NCBI GenBank assembly: GCA_005518205.2
Contig: RFFC02000008.1
Location: forward strand, 30,525 to 94,524
DNA: 64,000 nt
Source of the DNA: Hormoscilla sp. GUM202
GTDB lineage: Bacteria > Cyanobacteriota > Cyanobacteriia > Cyanobacteriales > Desertifilaceae
Direction of reading: 5' to 3'
A program made the translations under genes and the position numbers. Positions 979 through 34,491 of this stretch are shown here, in pieces. Numbering within the stretch: position 1 is the first letter of the stretch; the number at the start of each line of letters is the position of its first letter. The notes below the pieces were generated by a model. The model made no database searches. It worked only from the letters and a program-made list of their open reading frames with translations, and was not told the origin of the DNA.

Positions 979-1514
979 CGGATATGGAGACTAGCGCGAG
1001 AGAGTGTGTGAAATTAATTTTGTCCATGTACTTAAGGCCAGTAGGCTGCAACCCTTGCATTGTCGTCGTTCTGGAGTCAAAAAACTGTCCGGAGTATTGT
1101 GTTTAAGTCCCGTTAACCGGATTTTACAACAACTCAATCGGGTTGACGAATAAGGATGAACGGGTAGGAAAGAAGGAACAGCCCCGATCGCCTATGGACG
1201 AAGATCTCATTTCTGACGATCCCGATCGGGGCTATACACCAGTGGATAACATCCTGGAGATTCTATAAGCATTCACCAAGGTTAGCGGTCAGTTGCTAGA
1301 GGTCAGTTGTTAGCGGTCAGTTGTTAGCGGTCACTGGTACCTGTTGGGCCTGGTACGCGGTCACTGGTCCCCGGTCACCACCGATCGCCGGTCACTACCC
1401 TTCGCTATCGGTGGACGATGTGCGATGCGCGCGCTATTCGCACTGCGCATCGCACATCGGAGATGCCCATCCTATAACCTAATATAGTAAGGTAAAGTAA
1501 GTGAGTATTCTGGG
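979..1514. other. Gene-poor spacer with short repeats and one hairpin
   Basis: No convincing gene is present. The stretch holds several copies of a ggtcagttgttagc / cggtcactggt motif (about 1285-1395) and a strong hairpin at 1416-1459. A 24-codon open frame starting ATG at 1194 and stopping at 1268 (MDEDLISDDPDR...) could be the tail of a lost gene. I do not recognise it. Confidence 0.5.
1416..1459. repeat. Palindromic repeat with gcgctattcgcact core
   Basis: The arms cgatgtgcgatgcgc and gcgcatcgcacatcg are perfect complements around the core gcgctattcgcact. The same core, in either orientation, sits in the loops of the hairpins at 10513-10599, 12354-12483, 16399-16440, 20761-20806 and 29684-29778, while the arm sequences differ. 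It is therefore one member of a dispersed family defined by its core. Confidence 0.75.
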
Positions 1515-9106: not shown

Positions 9107-10663
9107 CTAAAATAGCCTCTGATTACTCCGCTGCAAACCTTCTTGAGCCATTGTTTCTAACTCTAAATTATTGATTTCCCTTGCTATCTGCAATGACTGC
9201 TGAAAGTAAGATTTTGCCCGTTCGTATTGCTCAAGCTCAAGGTAAACATTACCGAAACCGAGCAAGGAATTGCCTGCCAGATCGAGATCGCCTATTTCCC
9301 AACCGATCTTTGAGGACTGCTGAAGGTATGATTTTGCCCGTTCGTATTGCTCAAGCTCAAGGTAAACTTTGCCGAAACCGAGCAAGGAATCGCCTTCCAG
9401 TTCGCGATCTCCCATTTCCCTACCGATCTTTAAGGACTGCTGAAGGTATGATTTTGCCCGTTCGTATTGCTCAAGCTCAAGGTAAACATCGCCGAAACCG
9501 AGCAAGGAATTGCCTTCCAGACTGCGAGCGCCTATTTCTCTCGCGATCGACAACGACTGCTGAATGTATGATTTAGCCCGTTCGTATTGCTCAAGCTCAA
9601 GGTAAACATCGCCGAAACCGAGCAAGGAATTGCCTTCCAGACTGCGAGCGCCTATTTCTCTCGCGATCGACAACGACTGCTGAATGTATGATTTAGCCCG
9701 TTCGTATTGCTCAAGCTCAAGGTAAACAGCGCCGAAACCGAGCAGGGAAAGGCCTTCCAGATCGCGATTGCCTATTTCCCTACCGATCTTTAAGGACTGC
9801 TGAAGGTATGATTTTGCCCGTTCGTATTGCCCTTGCTCAAGGTAAACACCGCCGAAACCGAACAGGGAAAGGCCTTCCAGATCGCGATTGCCTATTTCCC
9901 TACCGATCTTTAAGGACTGCTGAAGGTATGATTTTGCCCGTTCGTATTGCCCTTGCTCAAGGTAAACACCGCCGAAACCGAACAGGGAAAGGCCTTCCAG
10001 ATCGCGATTGCCTATTTCCCTACCGATCTTTAAGGACTGCTGAAGGTATGATTTTGCCCGTTCGTATTGCCCTTGCTCAAGGTAAACACCGCCGAAACCG
10101 AACAGGGAAAGGCCTTCCAGATCGCGATTGCCTATTTCCCTACCGATCTTTAAGGACTGCTGAAGGTATGATTTGCCTTGTTCGTATTGCCCTTGCCCGG
10201 CGTAAACCAAGCCGAGACCGATCAAGGAAGCGCCTTCCAGCCCGCGATTGCCTATTTCCCTACCGATCGACAACGACTGCTGAAAGTATGGTTTTGCCCG
10301 TCCGTATTGCTCTCGTTCGAGCAAGGAATAGCCTTCCTCTAACAACAGGCTTGCTTCCTCTATCGAGCCTTCCTCTAAATCCTCTATCGCGTCATTGAAA
10401 TCCTCTAGCGCGTCATTTATATCCTCTATCACGTCATCTAGGGTTCGAGCTAACACCGATCCCGCACCGAATGGCCCCGAATTACCGACTGGTAAAGCCC
10501 CCCCGATCTCCCTGTGTTTCCCGGTGCTGAGTCTCCTGGGATCGCTAGTCGCACTACCCAGGCGACTCAGCGCGCTACTCGCACTACCCGGGAAACACAG
10601 CGTCAACAGCGTCAACAGCGTCAGTAGTAGGGTCAAGCTAATCTTGCTCTTGTTCATCTGCAT
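9107..10663 (-). CDS. Secreted TPR-repeat protein
   Basis: The protein starts at MQMNKSK (ATG at 10663), followed by a leucine/threonine-rich signal peptide (LLLTLLTLLTLCFPGSASS). The longer frame from 10723 would hide this signal. An AAAGGAG sequence sits near 10690, oddly far from the ATG, so a non-ATG start cannot be excluded. After a low-complexity region and an acidic helix (DDVIEDINDALEDFNDAIED), about ten 40-residue TPR-like units follow, each close to SYLQQSLKIGREIGNRDLEG plus LSLFGFGGVYLEQGQYERAK. Several units are identical at DNA level (three copies in 9781-10140). Such arrays mediate protein contacts. No partner is evident. Residues near the N-terminus are encoded by an inserted palindromic repeat. 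Confidence 0.85.
   Translation of the reverse strand: MQMNKSKISLTLLLTLLTLLTLCFPGSASSALSRLGSATSDPRRLSTGKHREIGGALPVGNSGPFGAGSVLARTLDDVIEDINDALEDFNDAIEDLEEGSIEEASLLLEEGYSLLEREQYGRAKPYFQQSLSIGREIGNRGLEGASLIGLGLVYAGQGQYEQGKSYLQQSLKIGREIGNRDLEGLSLFGFGGVYLEQGQYERAKSYLQQSLKIGREIGNRDLEGLSLFGFGGVYLEQGQYERAKSYLQQSLKIGREIGNRDLEGLSLFGFGGVYLEQGQYERAKSYLQQSLKIGREIGNRDLEGLSLLGFGAVYLELEQYERAKSYIQQSLSIAREIGARSLEGNSLLGFGDVYLELEQYERAKSYIQQSLSIAREIGARSLEGNSLLGFGDVYLELEQYERAKSYLQQSLKIGREMGDRELEGDSLLGFGKVYLELEQYERAKSYLQQSSKIGWEIGDLDLAGNSLLGFGNVYLELEQYERAKSYFQQSLQIAREINNLELETMAQEGLQRSNQRLF
9187..10306. repeat. 120-bp tandem repeats encoding TPR units
   Basis: About nine consecutive 120-bp units lie within the TPR gene. 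Lines starting at 9781, 9901 and 10021 are identical over 120 bp, and the units near 9541 and 9661 match each other over most of their length. Identity at silent positions points to recent unit duplication or gene conversion, so copy number probably varies among strains. Confidence 0.9.
10513..10599. repeat. Two-level nested palindrome inside the TPR reading frame
   Basis: The outer arms tgtgtttcccgg and ccgggaaacaca enclose a second hairpin (gctgagtctcctggg and cccaggcgactcagc) whose loop is atcgctagtcgcacta. The spacer before the outer right arm is gcgctactcgcacta, the same core again. The repeat is translated as CFPGSASSALSRLGSATSD in the TPR protein, so it has become part of the N-terminal region without breaking the frame. 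Confidence 0.75.
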
Positions 10664-10754
10664 CTGGACTTCAATAATTACAACTCTCCTTTTTAAGGAT
10701 AGCACTATCAACACTCTCCTCAATCATTTTTATAAAAATTGAATTTTCTCAACA

Positions 10755-11479: not shown

Positions 11480-11592
11480 GGCGTTGCACAATTACGGGAT
11501 GATGCCCTTTTTTGCACATAACTGAAACTGGCTTGTAGTCTAGGTTTAAGACTTCTGCAACTATGCCCATCATCCCGTAATTGTGCAACGCC
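11480..11592. mobile_element. MITE derived from the IS1-like element, 8-bp target duplication
   Basis: This 113-bp unit begins ggcgttgcacaattacggga and ends with the complement tcccgtaattgtgcaacgcc, the same termini as the full-length IS1-like copies. The 8-mer ttttcggc flanks both sides (11472-11479 and 11593-11600). It has no coding capacity, so a full-length relative must have mobilised it. Confidence 0.9.
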
Positions 11593-11640
11593 TTTTCGGC
11601 TACATATATCTAGATTAAAGTCACATTGATTGAGAAATTA

Positions 11641-12165: not shown

Positions 12166-12794
12166 CGAAACTCGGGGGACAGCACTACCCCCGAGACATC
12201 GTACTCGCACAAAAGGGGAGACGCTGGCTCCTGGCCTTCCGACTTTTCCGGAACGGTAGACGCGCTCATTCAAAGTCCGATGTCACCACTTACAAGAGTC
12301 GGACCGATCGCGCAGGGGTGTGGTCAAAACCCGTTGGTAGGAGGCCTCGCCTTCTGTGCGCCCCGGTCGCTCGATGTCTCCCGGGATCTCGATGTCTCGG
12401 GGGAGCGCTAATCGCACTACCCCCGAGACATCGTAGTCGCACTACCCGGGAGATATCGTAACCGCACTACCCGGGGCGCACAGCCCGAACCCGTTCCCAG
12501 GCGGGAGCCTGGGAACGAGGGGTCCGGCTACAGGAACAAAGCAATGTCATTGCGAGCACGCTCCGGGCCCCCTCCGCTGCGAGTGGCAACCTTCCTGCGA
12601 TGTCTCCTGTGTGCCGAGTCCCCTGGGACAAGAGCACAACAGGAGACATCGAAGCGGGCTGAAGCGGGCTATTTACACGCATCTAAGATGCACCCGGCTA
12701 TCAACTACTTGTGACCGCACCCAAGAGACCGCTCGCGTGTCTACTCGCACAAAAGGGGAGACATCGTACTCGCACAAAAGCTTAGACATCGACG
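12166..12794. repeat. Cluster of dispersed palindromic repeats
   Basis: No gene was seen. The region is packed with repeat units sharing gagacatcgta-tcgcac (about 12187, 12430, 12757) and ending in tacccggg or aaaagggg. It also holds a cgttcccaggcgggagcctgggaacg palindrome at 12493-12518, a copy of the cacgctccgggccccctccgctgcgag repeat at 12550-12576, and a hairpin with arms gatgtctcctgtg and cacaacaggagacatc (about 12599-12651). Confidence 0.75.
12354..12483. repeat. Three-level nested palindrome
   Basis: Three hairpins are nested. The outer arms are ctgtgcgccccgg and ccggggcgcacag. The middle arms are gtctcccggg and cccgggagat. The inner arms are gtctcggggg and acccccgagac, around agcgctaatcgcact. 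The spacers before the successive right arms are atcgtagtcgcacta and atcgtaaccgcacta, that is, the core motif of the family repeated each time. The structure looks like successive insertion of units inside earlier ones. Confidence 0.85.
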
Positions 12795-15530: not shown

Positions 15531-17062
15531 CTAAAACCGATGGGCCACACCACCACCCAGGACCAACCTTGCTCCATCGAGATCGCTACCAGCAATATCC
15601 CGCAACGCGGGAGTAATCACTAGAGGGATGTTTTTCAAGGGAGCGATCGAAACTCCTACTCCAAAATCCTGTCCCGACCATTCTGTTATGATACTCACGC
15701 GTCGCGCTACCCTGAAGGCTACATTCCCAAAAACATTGAATTGGGTTTTATCATCTAACAGTGCTTCTTGTGTCCGGAATTGCCCAGTCCCTATACCAGC
15801 AGTTACCGCTATGCGACTGAAGGGCTTATCGATATCCTCATCTGTCCGAAAAATCTTGGTGGCGACGCCATAAAACGTGTCCTCCAACCCGGTTTCATCC
15901 CCCAGAGTTATCAGACCATTTATTCCACCGGCGACCGCTAAATCTTCCGAGACTCGGCGATGCACTTTCACATTAAATCCCCCAGATCCAAAGTCGCGAG
16001 TATTGGTGCCCAAGCTAGCGAAAGCATAACTCAGTTCTACACCAACGGATTTTCTGGCATCCCCTAGGCCAACTCCCAAACCGAAGCCGGCGTCACTCAT
16101 GTCCGATCCGCGCGCCCGCTCTTGAAAGCTAGCCCCTGTATATATCGTGTTGTTATCGGCACCAAAACCAGAAGGTATGCCAACGGTGAGGCCAGGCGAT
16201 CCACCCTCATTCGAGTTCACCCCTATGATTGCTTCTAGATTTTCGAGCTGTTGTTGCAGGCGTATAGCTTTTTGTAAGCGGGCATCGTCAACTGAACTAC
16301 CATCTTGCCCAATACCTTGCCCGACAACAGTTGCCTCTACTTGTCGATCTTTGCTAGCATGTTTGTTTTTCTGAACAAATGCCTGGTAACCTGCCACTTG
16401 TGTCTCTCGGGTAGTACCAATAGCGCTTCCGGGAGACACAGCATCAACTAACGGTAATAGGTCTTTGGCATTGCCCTGGGACCGTTTTTTTTTCTGCTGG
16501 GGGTAGCCCACTGGCCCGCTCACCGCCGGCGTTCCTCGCTTTTGGGACGTCCCAATAGCAATGGTTAAGGGAGAGGAAGGACGAGTTCTGTCAGATATTC
16601 TATCGAGATCGGCTATTGGGGGGATATCCGCATAACTCAGACTAAATTCCGGCAGTTCCATGCCTAAATCACTTGGTACCGCTATGGGTGATGTCAGAGA
16701 AATTTGAGGAGGTTGACCTAAAGGATCGGACGATCCTTGCTGAGATTGCTGCGTAGCATAATCTTTCCCAGCATTGGCCATTGCGGTCTTTTGAGAGTTG
16801 ACGGTGACGCAATGGACCCAGCTAGTCTCTGTTCGGGGTACTCTACAGCAGCAAGGTCATTGTCCGTGGTGAGGGGACTTTGAAGCTGCTTGGGGTTTGA
16901 GACTGCCTTATCCGTTAACATATGCATGTTAACGGATGTCAAATTAGCCATGCCGATCGGGATTGATATAACGCGCATAATAATCTTGCTCTTGTCCGAT
17001 TGATTTTTTTTTCGATCCACTCTTCCGATTTTCAAACTTCTATCAGGATCGAGTTGTCTCAT
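15531..17062 (-). CDS. Outer-membrane beta-barrel-like protein, frameshift near N-terminus
   Basis: A 416-codon frame ends in alternating strands and a terminal phenylalanine (LVLGGGVAHRF), as in outer-membrane barrels. Motifs such as GLTVGIPSGFGAD, FGLGVGLGDARKSVGVELSY, FSRIAVTAGIGTGQF and PLVITPALRDIAG match a cyanobacterial surface-protein type. Its first ATG (16781) has no ribosome site. An upstream frame begins at 17062 with aaaggag at good distance and runs to 16718 in another phase. I infer one gene with a single frameshift between about 16857 and 16718, or a sequencing error. A palindromic repeat (16399-16440) is translated within it. Confidence 0.6.
16399..16440. repeat. Palindromic repeat inside a reading frame
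   Basis: The arms tgtgtctctcgg and ccgggagacaca enclose gtagtaccaatagcgctt, a variant of the family core. In the host gene it encodes VSPGSAIGTTRET. Its length and position keep the frame open. Confidence 0.7.
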
Positions 17063-17828: not shown

Positions 17829-18131
17829 ATGTGCGATTCGTTTAGCGTAAACTACCGGTGAAAACCGGGTAGGGGATGTTAAGACTCCAGAAAAGTTCCG
17901 CAAAGAACTTGCGGTTGGTCTACTAACCTATAACTTAATTTGTGCATTAATAGTAAAAGGGGCGATCGTCGCGTACCCCCACAACAGTTAAGCTTTAGCA
18001 GCTGTACTATCCGCCTTCTAGATGTTTTACATAGCGGAGTACCTTTCTGGGTTTATGAATCGAATAAATTACAAGAGTCGTTGCTCAATAGAATAGCAAA
18101 ATGTCAGTTACCCCATCAACCCAATAAGGTA
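17829..18131 (+). pseudogene. IS4-family transposase remnant, part 1
   Basis: The frame fragments read TPEKFRKELAVGLLTYNLIC, then LSFSSCTIRLLDVLHSGVPF and LLNRIAKCQLPHQPNKVQ, the C-terminal segment of an IS4-type transposase. The frame is broken by stops. The sequence resumes with VPHEPRKVRSRPQPFP at 19458, on the other side of the IS630 element. The IS630 element therefore inserted here. Confidence 0.75.
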
Positions 18132-18146
18132 CAGGGTATTCACCAG

Positions 18147-19128
18147 TTAGTTAGTACAGTAGCAGCATTTGGTAAACCAGTTCTTAAACGTAGTTGTTCC
18201 CATCAGCATCAGAGCAAGTTCAATTAACTGTTCTAGGACATCCATTGCTCGTGTTGGGAACATTCTGACCAGTGACTTAATCGTTGACCACAACATCTCA
18301 ATGGGATTGAAGTCTGGTGAGTAGGGAGGTAAATACTCTACTCTTGCTCCCGCAGTGGCGATCTGTTCTTCGATACCTTCCATTTTATGGATATTAAGGT
18401 TATCCATAACTACCACATCCCCTGGATTGAGCTTTGTCACCAGGTCATTCTTAACAAAATCCTGAAATTCTTTACCTTTCATGGAGCCTTGAATTGCTTT
18501 TTTCGCCACAACCCCTTTAATACTTATTGCTCCGATTAAGGTCATTTTTCTACCCTTGTAAAACCGTCTTAAACAGAATGCTTTTTGACCTTTCTCACTC
18601 TCGTGTCCAGAGACGCCCACCGGCGCTCTCGGACACGACCTGGCCATTGAGCGACTCATCCCTATCCAGAAAGCTGTCTCGTCGATAAATATCAATTTTC
18701 CCTGTGGTACATCTCGAACCTTCATCCAGTAATCAACTCGCTGCTGTTGACCGTCTTCCGTTGCTACCTTTTCTGACCGGTAAGTTTTTTTTTAAGGGTT
18801 AAGCCTTCTTTTTTGAGGAACTCACACATCCCCCCTACACTGACATAAACATCTTGCTCGTTTAATAGATGTTCCCTCAGCCTACCGGACAATCTGGGTA
18901 ATCTTTTACCATCTGAACTATAAAATATCGATGGGCTTCTAGCTTTCCCGGACGATTTGGACCTGGTTTTTTAGGGGTTAGGTCTTGAGAAACTCGATAT
19001 CGTTTGATATAACTATGAACCGTAGCCGGGCTAATCATAAACTGCTCTGCTAGTTGCCGAATGGAGCCAAAGCCCAATTCATAAGCAGTGACTACTTTTT
19101 TTCTAAGATCAACAGAGTAACGTCCCAT
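18147..19128 (-). pseudogene. IS630-family transposase, two frameshifts
   Basis: The N-terminal helix-turn-helix part (MGRYSVDLRKKVVTAYELGF, SPATVHSYIKRYRVS) runs 19128-18877. A middle piece in another frame reads LSGRLREHLLNEQDVYVSV and ends in a poly-A run. The DDE domain then follows, with FIDETAFW, VVMDNLNIHK and PYSPDFNPIEMLWS. Two single-base indels break the gene. Residues CPRAPVGVSGHES after MARS look like an inserted short palindrome (gtgtccagagacg and cgctctcggacac, about 18602-18637). Confidence 0.85.
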
Positions 19129-19457
19129 GGCTGAATCTGGTCGGCATTGAGTATAGCTCTAGTTTACCCCAAAAGTGTTACACTCATTTCCTGAACAATA
19201 TGTAACGTCCCATGGCTGAATCTGGTCGGCATTGAGTATAGCTCTAGTTTACCCCAAAAGTGTTACACTCATTTCCTGAACAATATGTAACGTCCCATGG
19301 CTGAATCTGGTCGGCATTGAGTATAGCTCTAGTTTACCCCAAAAGTGTTACACTCATTTCCTGAACAATATGTAACGTCCCATGGCTGAATCTGGTCGGC
19401 ATTGAGTATAGCTCTAGTTTACCCCAAAAGTGTTACACTCATTTCCTGAACAAGCTG
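19121..19457. repeat. Four 85-bp tandem copies of the IS630 terminus
   Basis: cgtcccatggctgaatctgg recurs at 19121, 19206, 19291 and 19376, exactly 85 bp apart. Each unit holds the start-codon region of the transposase and the terminal cactcatttcctgaac. Only the last unit joins the true end. The copies look identical, indicating recent duplication. Confidence 0.95.
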
Positions 19458-19714: not shown

Positions 19715-20719
19715 ATGGGAAGTATATTAGTCACTGGAGCCGCTGGTTTTATTGGTTTCCACCTCTGTCAACATCTCCTGACCAGGGGGGAATCTGTTAT
19801 TGGCATTGATAATCTTAACGACTATTACGATGTTAGCTTAAAACAGGATCGCTTAAAACAGCTGCAACAACACCCGCAGTTTCAGTTCGCTAAACTGGAT
19901 CTGGCCGATCGCCAGGCCATCCCGGAATTGTTCGATCGCCATCAACCAGAGAAAGTGGCTCATTTAGCCGCCCAAGCAGGGGTGCGCTATTCTCTGAAAA
20001 ATCCCCACGCCTATGTGGATAGCAACTTGGTGGGATTTGTGAATATTCTGGAAGGATGTCGTCATGGGGGAGTCAAGCATCTGGTATTTGCTTCCTCTAG
20101 TTCTGTTTATGGCGTGAATAGCAAAACCCCTTTTTCCGTCCACGATAATGTCGATCGCCCGGTGAGTCTGTATGCAGCAACGAAAAAGGCCAACGAACTG
20201 ATGGCGCATACTTACAGCCATCTCTATGGTTTGCCAACCACGGGTTTGCGTTTCTTCACGGTTTACGGACCTTGGGGACGCCCGGACATGGCCCTATTTT
20301 TATTCACCAAAGCCATTCTCGCTGGAGAACCCATTAACGTGTTTAACCACGGCAAGATGCAACGGGACTTTACCTACATTGATGATATCATTACGGGAGT
20401 AGTGCGCGTATTAGATAAGATTCCCGAACCCGATCCTAACTGGAATGACTCGGACCCGGGAAGCAGTCACGCCCCTTATAAACTGTACAATATTGGCAAC
20501 CATCAGCCCGTGGAATTGCTCGGGTTTATTGAAGTTCTAGAAGCATGTCTGGGTATGAAAGCGCAGAAGAATATGCTGCCGATGCAGCCTGGAGATGTTC
20601 CCATCACTTACGCGGATATCGAGGATTTGGAAAAGGCGGTGGGTTTTCGACCCAGCACTCCCATTGAGGTGGGAGTTGAGCGTTTTGTTGCTTGGTATCG
20701 CGACTATTTCCAAGTTTAA
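19715..20719 (+). CDS. NAD-dependent epimerase, UDP-glucuronate 4-epimerase type
   Basis: The enzyme has 334 residues and belongs to the extended short-chain dehydrogenases. The nucleotide-binding motif TGAAGFIG is at 7-14. The catalytic Tyr153 and Lys157 are in SLYAATKKAN, and the upstream serine cluster is ASSSSVYG. The sequence HSHLYGLPTTGLRFFTVYGPWGRPDMA-like block and the length point to UDP-glucuronate/UDP-galacturonate interconversion for cell-surface polysaccharide. UDP-glucose 4-epimerase is the main alternative. The gene is flanked by repeats on both sides and stands alone. Confidence 0.9.
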   Translation: MGSILVTGAAGFIGFHLCQHLLTRGESVIGIDNLNDYYDVSLKQDRLKQLQQHPQFQFAKLDLADRQAIPELFDRHQPEKVAHLAAQAGVRYSLKNPHAYVDSNLVGFVNILEGCRHGGVKHLVFASSSSVYGVNSKTPFSVHDNVDRPVSLYAATKKANELMAHTYSHLYGLPTTGLRFFTVYGPWGRPDMALFLFTKAILAGEPINVFNHGKMQRDFTYIDDIITGVVRVLDKIPEPDPNWNDSDPGSSHAPYKLYNIGNHQPVELLGFIEVLEACLGMKAQKNMLPMQPGDVPITYADIEDLEKAVGFRPSTPIEVGVERFVAWYRDYFQV

Positions 20720-21302
20720 ATGCGTGACACATATTTCCTCACTTCGCTGGTAGCCCGCCTTCGGTGTATCCTGGGTAGTGCGAATAGCGCTCCCACGATA
20801 CACCGAGGGTTCAAACCCTAAGGCTTTAAGCTCAAGTGGGTTAAAATTAAAACCGGTTTTAACCCACTAACGGGAGTTTGGGAAAAAATCGGCCTTTAGG
20901 AGCCTCAAACCCTTTCACAGAGCCATTTTTCTGTCTCGCTCACCGCAGCCTCAGGGTTGGCTGCCTATGAATCCCCTTCGACGTAAAACTCATACTCTGT
21001 AAGGGTTTGAGCCGTTTGGCCCCTTAAAAATTCTCAAGTCCCGTTAATTGGACTGAACCAGTGCCGTGTTACTCTATCATGTGGGTACCTTCAGCACGGC
21101 TACCAACAGCCGGGACAGCCCACGGTGCAAGCCCTGCCCACACCGGTAGAGGCCGAACGCTGGGACGAATTTGTCCCGCGTTACGTTGGTAGCCCCTTCA
21201 GCACGACAGCCTGCATCCTGCGGCCATAGTTACCCGGAAATCACCGACAATACATCCGAACAAGAACTGCTAGAGATTCTGTACTGAACAAGGGAGGAAA
21301 AA
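20720..21302. other. Repeat-filled spacer
   Basis: It contains the palindrome at 20761-20806 and a ttaaaaccggttttaa palindrome near 20848. It also has a module cctcaaaccctttcacagagcc ... aagtcccgttaattgg (20902-21048) that recurs in part at 37730-37815 and 1104-1120. Around 21100-21290 a frame ends SEQELLEILY-stop just before the sulfotransferase start. No gene could be supported. Confidence 0.5.
20761..20806. repeat. Palindromic repeat, family core agtgcgaatagcgc
   Basis: The arms tcggtgtatc and gatacaccga enclose ctgggtagtgcgaatagcgctcccac. The inner ggg/ccc pair and the core match the other members of the dispersed family. Confidence 0.75.
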
Positions 21303-21767: not shown

Positions 21768-21963
21768 TGGCAATGAGCCAAAATACTTCATTGTTAAACT
21801 GTCACTAATAGACCCTTGGTCTGTCAAGGAAATGATGACGGATAAGAGAAGGGAAGGCTCGGACCAATTTGGCAATGAGCCAAAATACTTCATTGTTAAA
21901 CTGTCACTAATAGACTCTTGGTATGTCAAGGAAATGATGACGGATAAGAGAAGGGAAGGCTCG
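21768..21963. repeat. Two 98-bp tandem copies near an ISKra4 terminus
   Basis: The block beginning atttggcaatgagccaaaat repeats after 98 bp (21768 and 21866) with only a few differences (gacccttggtctg versus gactcttggtatg). Each copy carries the subterminal part of the element, so the end is duplicated. Confidence 0.9.
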
Positions 21964-22066
21964 GAAGCGGTTATCTCCGTAAAATTCGTCAATTTTATCT
22001 TGACAGACCACGAGATGATGAGAATGTCAAGATTGACTCACCTTGAGAATACTCCATTGAGATAAG

Positions 22067-22093
22067 CACGCTCCGGGCCCCCTACGCTGCGAG
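22067..22093. repeat. 27-bp repeat inserted in the transposase gene
   Basis: cacgctccgggccccctacg followed by ctgcgag interrupts the conserved end of the transposase. Removing it (keeping one cacg) restores the family ending RHRAYLNG. Related copies stand at 12550-12576, 32349-32372 and twice at 37618-37687. Confidence 0.8.
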
Positions 22094-23116
22094 ATGCCGC
22101 AGAACTTGGGGAACATTGGCAGCTTTCCACTGCGCTCCTGAGAGCTTCACCCGTGCCGCAACCTGCTTAATCGTTGATTCCACCTCTCCCGAACCGATTG
22201 AAATTCCCTCGGCTTGGTAATAGCCATAGTTCACAATGCGGTGACGATGCTTAGTAACATAGGCCCTGAAGTTATCAACCCGTGGATGCTCCCAGTCGTC
22301 AAATTCTTTGAGGGCTGCATCTACCTTGCCTGACCATAGGAGAGCTTTCACTCGTGCCAGTCTAGAGCTGGACCCACCGACTTGCTCGAGGTTTTCCATC
22401 AAGTGATACCAATCGAGGATTTCCAGACGGAAGATGGTTGGGCCAATCTCGGCAAACAAATTCCAAACGCCATCATGACCGTCTCCGATACTCACAAGTG
22501 GATTCGCCAAGGGCTGCTGGTTGACCCATTTGACCAGTCCTGCATTGTCCCGAAAGAAGGCCGCTACCCCGAGGTCATGTAGATTAACGCCCTTGTAATC
22601 GCGCCACTCACAGGGTCTCCCTTGCGGGGTCCGTAAGCGTACTTTCCCCCCATCAATGCTCATTTCCTCAACAACTTCCTTGACAGTCGGCAACTTCAAC
22701 TCATGGGCGAGCACTTTCGGTTCTTGAGGGCTGATTTCGGAAACAGCTTTTTTAGCCGTCGGCAACTCAAACTCCTGAGGGGGCAGTTTCGGTCCTTGAG
22801 GGCCCGTTGAGGAAACGGCTTCTTTAGCTGTGGGCAACTCAAACTCCTGAAGGGGCAGTTTCGGTTCTTGAGCGCTCGTTGAGGAAACGGCTTCTTTAAC
22901 TGTCAGTAATTCAAACTCATAACGTTGCACCAGTCGTTGCTGAGTTCCCCGGGAAACGCTCATCCCCGTGAGCTGCTTAAGATCTTCCGAGGCGTGCTCA
23001 TAAGAAGAGTTCGCACTCAGTAACAAGCAACATTTTTCCAGATAGGGACTCCACTGGCTATAGGCTCTCACATCAAAATAAGTCGCTTGCTTCTCCGTGA
23101 TGAGGAGCTGGCCCAA
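22082..23116 (-). pseudogene. ISKra4-family transposase, main part, C-terminus altered
   Basis: The 344-codon frame contains the family signature MSIDGGKVRLRTPQG, GDGHDGVWNLF, EILDWYHLMENL and SIGSGEVESTIKQ. Near residues 75-155 a unit around QEFELPTAKEAVSSTGPQG is repeated about three times, which is not normal for the family. The last residues HLAA-stop come from the inserted 27-bp repeat at 22067-22093. Loss of only about eight residues might leave activity, but it is doubtful. Confidence 0.85.
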
Positions 23117-23124
23117 AATGCTGT

Positions 23125-23343
23125 TTAAGATTCGGGTTCGCCCTGCGGTGGTGCCACTGGTGCTTTCGATAAAAAAAGGGCAATCTCTGGACTGACGTAT
23201 TGAAGCAACTGCCCACGGACTGTAGCTTCGAGTCCTGAGAGTGTTTTCAATTGCTCTGGAACAGTCCCTTGGGCCTCCTCATACAACAAGGCGGCTATTC
23301 CCAAAGCATAGGTTTTAATTTGAGCTAAATTTTCAGGATTCAT
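23125..23343 (-). CDS. ISKra4 N-terminal frame
   Basis: This 72-residue frame (NPENLAQIKTYALGIAALLY) lies just upstream of the main transposase frame. It corresponds to the N-terminal part of ISKra4 transposases, which often have this region in a separate or frameshifted frame. The ISKra4 copy at 34511-35777 has the same arrangement (35402-35623). Confidence 0.7.
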   Translation of the reverse strand: MNPENLAQIKTYALGIAALLYEEAQGTVPEQLKTLSGLEATVRGQLLQYVSPEIALFLSKAPVAPPQGEPES

Positions 23344-23450
23344 AGTTTTAGAGGGAGCGTTTACCGACTGTCTCAGCTTAACACCATCTCGGAACCCGTT
23401 CGACTAAGCATTTCTACTCATTGCGAAACTGGGATGCACCCTCTTTTGAC

Positions 23451-29683: not shown

Positions 29684-29778
29684 GGCGTACCCTGGTCGCT
29701 CGATGTCCCCCCACCAGGGGACGCGCTAATCGCACCCCCAGAGGGGGGACATCGTACTCGCATTACCCAGGGGACGCC
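29684..29778. repeat. Nested palindrome upstream of the hydrolase gene
   Basis: The outer arms ggcgtaccctgg and ccaggggacgcc enclose gatgtcccccc and ggggggacatc, with the core gcgctaatcgcacc and the spacer gtactcgcattac. It has the same architecture as the unit at 12354-12483. Confidence 0.8.
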
Positions 29779-33970: not shown

Positions 33971-33989
33971 TGTTCACATGATTAAACTA

Positions 33990-34491
33990 AGCCAAGAAGT
34001 CACCTTCCCGACTCGTCTTCAGAACCGGACGTGAGACTTTCACCTCATCCGGCTCCTCAGCTTCGTCATTCCTGTCATGAATACGACCCTTGCTACCATC
34101 TCTGGCAGACTTGTAGTCGTGGCAATATTGCTCTGTCCTGGGAGTCGCACGAGAGCATGCGCTGCTTGCATGTGCTCGCTTTTTATGAGTTTTCGCCTTA
34201 GTTAAGAGCAAGTTGTGATTATCATTCTCACTTTAACAAGCAGCTTGACAACCAGACTTGCATCACATTTTTACTCAGTCTTTAGCAACTGTTTTTGACC
34301 ACACCCCTGATTGCGGCCTGTTACCAGCTTCACTCTTTGGAGTTCCGAGTCCAATCGGTGTGGTCAGGTTGGGAGTCACTGTATCTCCTACAGGACGGGA
34401 CTTGCACCCGCATCCAAGGGTCAGTTAGGAAGTTTCCCGGGTGTTCCCGGACGTTTTCCTCCCAGGCTATGGATTTGGGAACGAATCGCAC
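33990..34491 (-). ncRNA. Group II intron remnant without intact ORF
   Basis: On the minus strand the unit begins gtgcgattcg at 34491 (the GUGYG start of group II introns). It contains a domain I-like part with gggtgcaagtcccg. Near the end it carries domain V at 34022-34055: gagccggatgaggtgaaagt ctcacgtccggttc, a near-perfect hairpin. A short coding relic (YCHDYKSARDGSKG) recalls the HNH end of the intron-encoded protein. The reverse transcriptase is lost. The 3' end is placed only approximately. Confidence 0.75.

Follow-up and report, generated by a model that had tools for sequence, protein, structure and literature searches.

The window, by which is meant the whole 64,000-nt stretch of DNA analysed from Hormoscilla sp. 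GUM202, carries a series of palindromic hairpins that lie 5' or 3' of genes or within open frames, some of them one inside another (Table 1). Every hairpin named in the original prediction was confirmed to exist, the three-level nest at 12354-12483 included. The repeat proved to be a 44-nt unit in which two complementary 14-bp arms enclose a conserved, asymmetric 16-nt loop (AGCGCTANTCGCACTA).

Table 1. Units and nests of units in the window
Feature	Position	Strand	Remarks
Single unit 5' of DNA methylase gene	1416..1459	+	Found with the covariance model; site empty in SP12CHS1
Two-level nest	10513..10599	+	Inner unit 10527-10570; identical in GM7CHS1pb
Three-level nest	12354..12483	+	Outer, middle and inner arms paired; same nest in GM7CHS1pb with changed middle-left junction
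Innermost complete 44-nt unit	12390..12433	+	Arms 14/14; loop AGCGCTAATCGCACTA; covariance model 71 bits, E 1e-15
Single unit within open frame 15531-16781 (minus strand)	16398..16441	-	Shared with GM7CHS1pb
Single unit 3' of gene 19715-20719	20762..20805	-	Site empty in both congeners
Two-level nest	29684..29778	+	Inner unit degenerate; inner part shorter by 27 nt in GM7CHS1pb

Within the three-level nest, the outer arms (12354-12366/12471-12483) pair at 13/13 positions, the middle arms (12372-12385/12445-12458) at 93% and the inner arms (12390-12403/12420-12433) at 14/14. When folded as DNA, the 130-nt nest yielded -49.5 kcal/mol, compared with -22.4 ± 2.9 kcal/mol for shuffled sequences (z -9.3). 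The nest at 10513-10599 is itself contained in an open frame for a TPR protein (9107-10723, minus strand). The loop of each outer unit is interrupted, its left remnant reading AGCT, ATCT or TCGCT and its right remnant TANTCGCACTA. The spacer previously described ahead of each right arm is simply this 3' remnant. At the middle-left junction (12372-12390), the window has TCGCTCGATG where GM7CHS1pb (L056) has TCGGGAGATG; the changes are clustered, create a new palindrome (CGGGAGATGTCTCCCG) and resemble the outcome of hairpin-templated template switching.

Distribution of the unit and variation of its arms

Hormoscilla, a cyanobacterial sponge symbiont (PMC6520454), was represented by three genomes, two of which (GM7CHS1pb and SP12CHS1) are metagenome assemblies, with the same nests recurring in independently assembled genomes. 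Two papers on Hormoscilla genomes make no mention of such repeats in the main text. The search of the complete GUM202 genome proposed in the original prediction was conducted with a covariance model built from 15 units, and returned at least 147 matches with E ≤ 0.1 (best 7e-15), which excludes chance as the origin of the family even though E-values from a purpose-built model are rough. Scoring was confined to the 150 best candidates and mostly missed outer units whose loops are split, so that 147 is about a lower bound, and the copy number in GUM202 is put at approximately 150 or more; the two congeners hold around 97 copies each.

Outside the genus, 56 further genomes of the same family and order yielded no unit in the model search, and a class-wide sample of 390 genomes gave a single weak match (G063:C1:2860607-2860647, E 3e-5) that may represent either chance or a distant relative. 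The exact core GGGAGCGCTANTCGCACTACCC, sought across 84,980 species, occurred in Hormoscilla only (GM7CHS1pb and SP12CHS1), and had no match among viral contigs; nor did the hairpins match any Rfam family at the gathering threshold. The unit family is thus genus-restricted and present in high copy number.

Whereas the arms had been regarded as unrelated from one hairpin to the next, they were found to be variants of one consensus, roughly CNRTGTCTCCYGGG. The accompanying claim that they are always self-complementary is nearly, but not strictly, correct: arms pair on average at 13.2 of 14 positions (Watson-Crick pairs), a mean inflated by the choice of units with at least 11 pairs, as against 9.2 after these arms have been shuffled between units. 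Relative to the commonest pair at each position, 96 distinct units exhibited 263 paired substitutions in which pairing was kept, and 70 one-sided ones. Seven 44-mers recur in identical form at two or three unrelated sites, indicating that the arms travel with the unit, while the single consensus and the paired substitutions indicate that they diverge in subfamilies. Consequently, the suggestion that arms are generated or captured afresh at each insertion received no support. Orthologous pairs of units were identical in 14 of 16 cases; in one pair, a base pair had switched from GC to TA and one further position had changed singly. Arm variation would then arise by paired substitution within moving subfamilies, and complementarity may be maintained either by selection for copies that fold or by hairpin-templated correction.

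Nesting and insertion into the loop

Among the 93 units that underlie these statistics, drawn from sampled stretches of the genome rather than from its whole length, 18 lie nested in the loop of another unit, whereas approximately 0.05 would be expected at random. Nesting thus exceeds the random expectation several hundredfold. All but one of the nested units (17/18) share the orientation of the outer unit, the exception being an inverted copy at L024, and since the units are palindromic, this 17:1 bias points to a process that reads either the loop or the target asymmetrically.

Direct evidence for loop insertion was obtained at L021, where the SP12CHS1 ortholog is a single hairpin (its loop lacking CAC) and the window's genome carries in that loop a second unit with different arms; the empty site is here itself a unit loop. 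Together with the excess of nesting, this polymorphism upholds the earlier proposal of repeated insertion into the loop of a pre-existing unit. Two insertion points were recognised within the loop, one before GCGCTAAT, associated with a gain of 45 nt at L021, and one before TANTCGC, at which the gain is 43 nt. It is the latter, commoner point that gains 43 rather than 45 nt and scores poorly against the target motif described below. The deepest nest, a four-level structure at L029 that is wholly missing from GM7CHS1pb, measures 173 nt by hand count, equivalent to 44 + 3 × 43.

The +43 nests may be an alternative product of the process that yields +45, or be due in part to local template switching. 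In a more radical form, the latter explanation would dispense with incoming foreign units, and nests would expand in place through tandem duplication or template switching at the tip of the hairpin. It could account for the composition of a +43 nest, which consists of an 18-nt left repeat and a 25-nt right repeat, and two signs of template switching were recorded: the level-2 right arm at L029 is identical to the inner right arm, and the middle-left junction of the 12354 nest differs between strains by clustered changes that make a new palindrome. However, inner arms are generally unlike the outer arms that surround them, the inner unit at L024 is inverted, and one nest has, by comparison with SP12CHS1, gained an entire foreign unit. 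Local growth as the general origin of the nests was consequently judged improbable.

Filled and empty sites, target preference and copies inside genes

The congener DNA is approximately 97% identical to that of the window's genome, and so permitted the comparison of filled and empty sites in sister strains that had been recommended for this repeat. Presence or absence differed at 13 sites, each polarised from its clean flanks and not from a tree. In 12 of the 13, the filled site was longer by a net 45 nt exactly: at L021, L039 (two units), L045, L087, L091, L099 (two units) and L215, at L115, which lies in an AMP-binding gene, and at window positions 1416 and 20762, the last two being counted by hand. 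At L226, the gain was 44 nt relative to the window. No consistent target-site duplication was apparent across the 13 sites; L115 can be read as containing a 4-nt repeat, but only because target and unit end coincide there. At several sites, 1-5 junction bases were changed in addition to the insertion, so that the ends of the unit are not sharply defined; the gain in length was nonetheless 45 nt. Copies thus differ between strains, and the gain is fixed.

Selection for an intact reading frame was considered as the sole cause of the 45-nt gain and rejected, as L045 and L087 are +45 sites with no long open frame around them. A second candidate explanation, that the hairpins are static structural or regulatory RNA elements (a terminator or an mRNA stabiliser) held under selection and immobile, would fit both the stable fold and the strong covariation of pairs. 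The many copies inside open frames in either orientation, the 13 presence/absence differences between sister genomes, the lack of any Rfam match for the hairpins and their confinement to one genus all count against it, and since the empty sites largely refute it, this explanation was deemed extremely improbable. The reading preferred here, that the unit is a very small, non-autonomous and genus-specific mobile hairpin that inserts in loops, is by contrast highly probable, an assessment that applies to the element itself and excludes any enzyme.

Alignment of 112 distinct non-nested sites revealed CCTT upstream of the unit and T-[C/G]-A-T-[T] at +6 to +10 downstream, with TNAT occurring at the latter place in 21% of sites compared with 1.8% of background positions. 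It is therefore shown statistically that the unit prefers a short asymmetric target, approximately CCT[unit]N5-T[C/G]AT, although the motif is weak. The 5' half of the unit's own loop (GCGC-TAAT) partly resembles this target: by motif score, the first insertion point in the loop ranks between the top 0.1% (TAAT loop) and the top 7% of positions, whereas the second (+43) ranks only in the top 10-31%. A general targeting of hairpin loops was rejected, for when the flanks of the 112 non-nested sites were joined, the insertion point fell in a predicted loop in 24% of cases as against 25% at random. As non-unit sites are not enriched in loops, structure alone does not explain the targeting of unit loops; the motif accounts for part of the self-targeting, to which a further factor must add. 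The likeness of loop to target would render units targets in their turn, in the same orientation, and could thereby build nests of up to four levels.

Many units lie within long open frames, in both orientations. Judged from the predicted proteins, in-frame copies are present in conserved genes for a Ser/Thr kinase (domains 20-271 and 316-383, unit at 281-296), RodZ (HTH 49-108 and C-domain 221-290, unit at 177-192), ARC6 (double unit at around 500-515, between domains reaching to 432 and others starting at 625) and the AMP-binding enzyme of L115, in which the unit (134-148) lies inside a domain (27-355) and the SP12CHS1 ortholog lacks exactly 45 nt. A further copy occupies an AMIN-amidase (unit at 176-191, between domains reaching to 136 and others starting at 458). 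Stop-free frames average 4.5 of six per unit, compared with 3.8 for shuffled palindromes, and as 45 is a multiple of three and most frames are free of stops, an insertion in a gene can survive as approximately 15 extra residues. Such insertions would be tolerated in genes, often in linkers, and are presumably translated, giving predicted peptides such as SPGSATRTTQET within RodZ or ARC6. A preference of the unit for genes was tested against open-span length and rejected, the spans around units being no longer than those of controls (median 387 vs 483 nt).

Possible routes of movement and relation to known repeats

The proposed mechanism has the unit copying itself to new sites with, as a rule, a gain of exactly 45 nt and no consistent target duplication. 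An intermediate that retains the hairpin strand would be implied, and the hairpin, in the form of either RNA or single-stranded DNA, is probably mobilised in trans. Of the two candidate routes, the one through RNA, in which a reverse transcriptase of a group II intron would act, is slightly preferred but remains tentative. Group II-type reverse transcriptases are strongly expanded: RVT_1 matches number 46 and 79 in two Hormoscilla genomes (G000 and G001), as against two in a relative of the same family that lacks the unit (G003); the third Hormoscilla genome, whose assembly is fragmented, has six. A group II intron piece is also present at window positions 33981-34058. The link between reverse transcriptases and the unit is a correlation.

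Alternatively, the unit could be a REP-like element whose single-stranded DNA hairpin is mobilised in trans by a Y1 HUH transposase of the RAYT or IS200/IS605 type. The hairpin structure, the lack of a consistent target duplication and the strand-specific orientation would all be in keeping with such a route, Y1 transposase genes occur in all three Hormoscilla genomes, and in the loop GTAG stands beside the arm on the reverse strand, recalling the GTAG-tagged REPs (PMC3733652). On the other hand, the relative without the unit has seven Y1 matches, compared with four to six in Hormoscilla, and the conserved target bases lie 6-10 nt from the insertion and not adjacent to it. Furthermore, REPs typically flank their RAYT gene, so that the finding of no unit at 10 Y1 loci, each examined with approximately 1.5 kb of flank, also weighs against this route, which is regarded as rather doubtful.

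REPs are 20-40 bp in length and typically extragenic, and include GTAG/CGTC-tagged forms (PMC3733652) and REPINs (PMC3116915). Like them, the units are high-copy, dispersed, extremely short and genus-specific hairpins; unlike them, they are found inside genes as well, have no copy beside a Y1 (RAYT) gene at the ten loci with ~1.5-kb flanks, and carry GTAG not as a tag at the hairpin foot but on the reverse strand at the loop edge. With MITEs, exemplified in cyanobacteria by Nezha (as cited in PMC3733652), they share small size, lack of autonomy, palindromic structure and mobility, but differ in being near-perfect palindromes over a full length of only 44 nt and in having no consistent target-site duplication at the 13 sites. 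That the repeat would fall outside any known REP or MITE family is in agreement with the missing Rfam match, an exact core found in no other genus, the lack of a consistent target-site duplication and the unit-free surroundings of the Y1 loci examined.

Closer parallels are offered by two other groups. The Rickettsia palindromic elements (RPEs; Ogata et al. 2000, 2002, as reviewed in PMC10969869) comprise ten families of ~150 bp inserted in frame in genes. RPE and unit alike are small palindromic repeats placed in frame in protein genes, adding a peptide to unrelated proteins of a symbiont (an obligate one in the case of RPEs), whereas the unit is distinguished by its length of 44 nt, conserved loop, cyanobacterial host, nesting in its own loop, fixed 45-nt gain and target motif. 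The unit is also comparable with the small dispersed repeats of filamentous cyanobacteria, in being very small, in its paired substitutions and in its insertion within its own copies. These repeats (SDR1-SDR8, 21-27 nt) were reportedly described from Nostoc and its relatives by Elhai et al. in Genome Research in 2008, with SDR1 and SDR4 said to be inserted within their own copies and RNA intermediates said to have been proposed. The unit differs in its 44-nt length and in an exact core that is confined to Hormoscilla rather than occurring in Nostoc-type cyanobacteria, the model giving one weak match in the 390 class genomes; SDRs are not known for in-frame gene insertion or a 45-nt gain. The unit works like RPEs and cyanobacterial SDRs, and is grouped here with the small palindromic mobile repeats. 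That it might constitute a distinct class of mobile element, namely a self-targeting 45-nt hairpin that bears its own target in the loop, is of a length and composition that leave reading frames open, in effect inserts frame-preserving peptides and moves by an undescribed RNA or single-strand route, is a speculative proposal and on balance unlikely.

The unit ranks among the smallest mobile elements for which direct filled/empty evidence exists, and this one family unites self-nesting with a target motif, a constant change in length and insertion into genes in frame. Because the target is defined and the three close genomes are polymorphic at many sites, how SDR- and RPE-like elements move becomes directly testable. 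The copies inside genes provide a natural set of 15-residue insertions in housekeeping proteins, and bear on gene annotation in sponge symbionts.

A number of other repeats were also recorded. A second palindromic repeat, GTTCCCAGGC...GGGAACGAGG, occurs at window positions 12486-12520, near 3637 in L067, near 4032 in L071 and at L098 in GM7CHS1pb, either alone or in unit loops between TCGCAC and the right arm; the unit at L098 is whole in the window's genome and interrupted by this repeat in GM7CHS1pb. The hairpin at window positions 12599-12650 has unit-like arms (GATGTCTCCTGT/ACAGGAGACATC) and a different loop that holds a GTCCCCTGGGAC palindrome, and is possibly a sister family of the unit. 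On a larger scale, a stretch of ~1.4 kb (L070:6605-8000, G000:C28) is present in GM7CHS1pb in more than 30 copies at ~100% identity, reflecting a recent burst of a probable insertion sequence. Window regions 21864-23442 and 18130-19206, each with many GM7CHS1pb copies (at 98% and ~85% identity, respectively), are probably insertion sequences as well, and a dispersed repeat of ~114 bp at 11480-11593, of which both congeners hold many copies (90-96% identity), is possibly a MITE.
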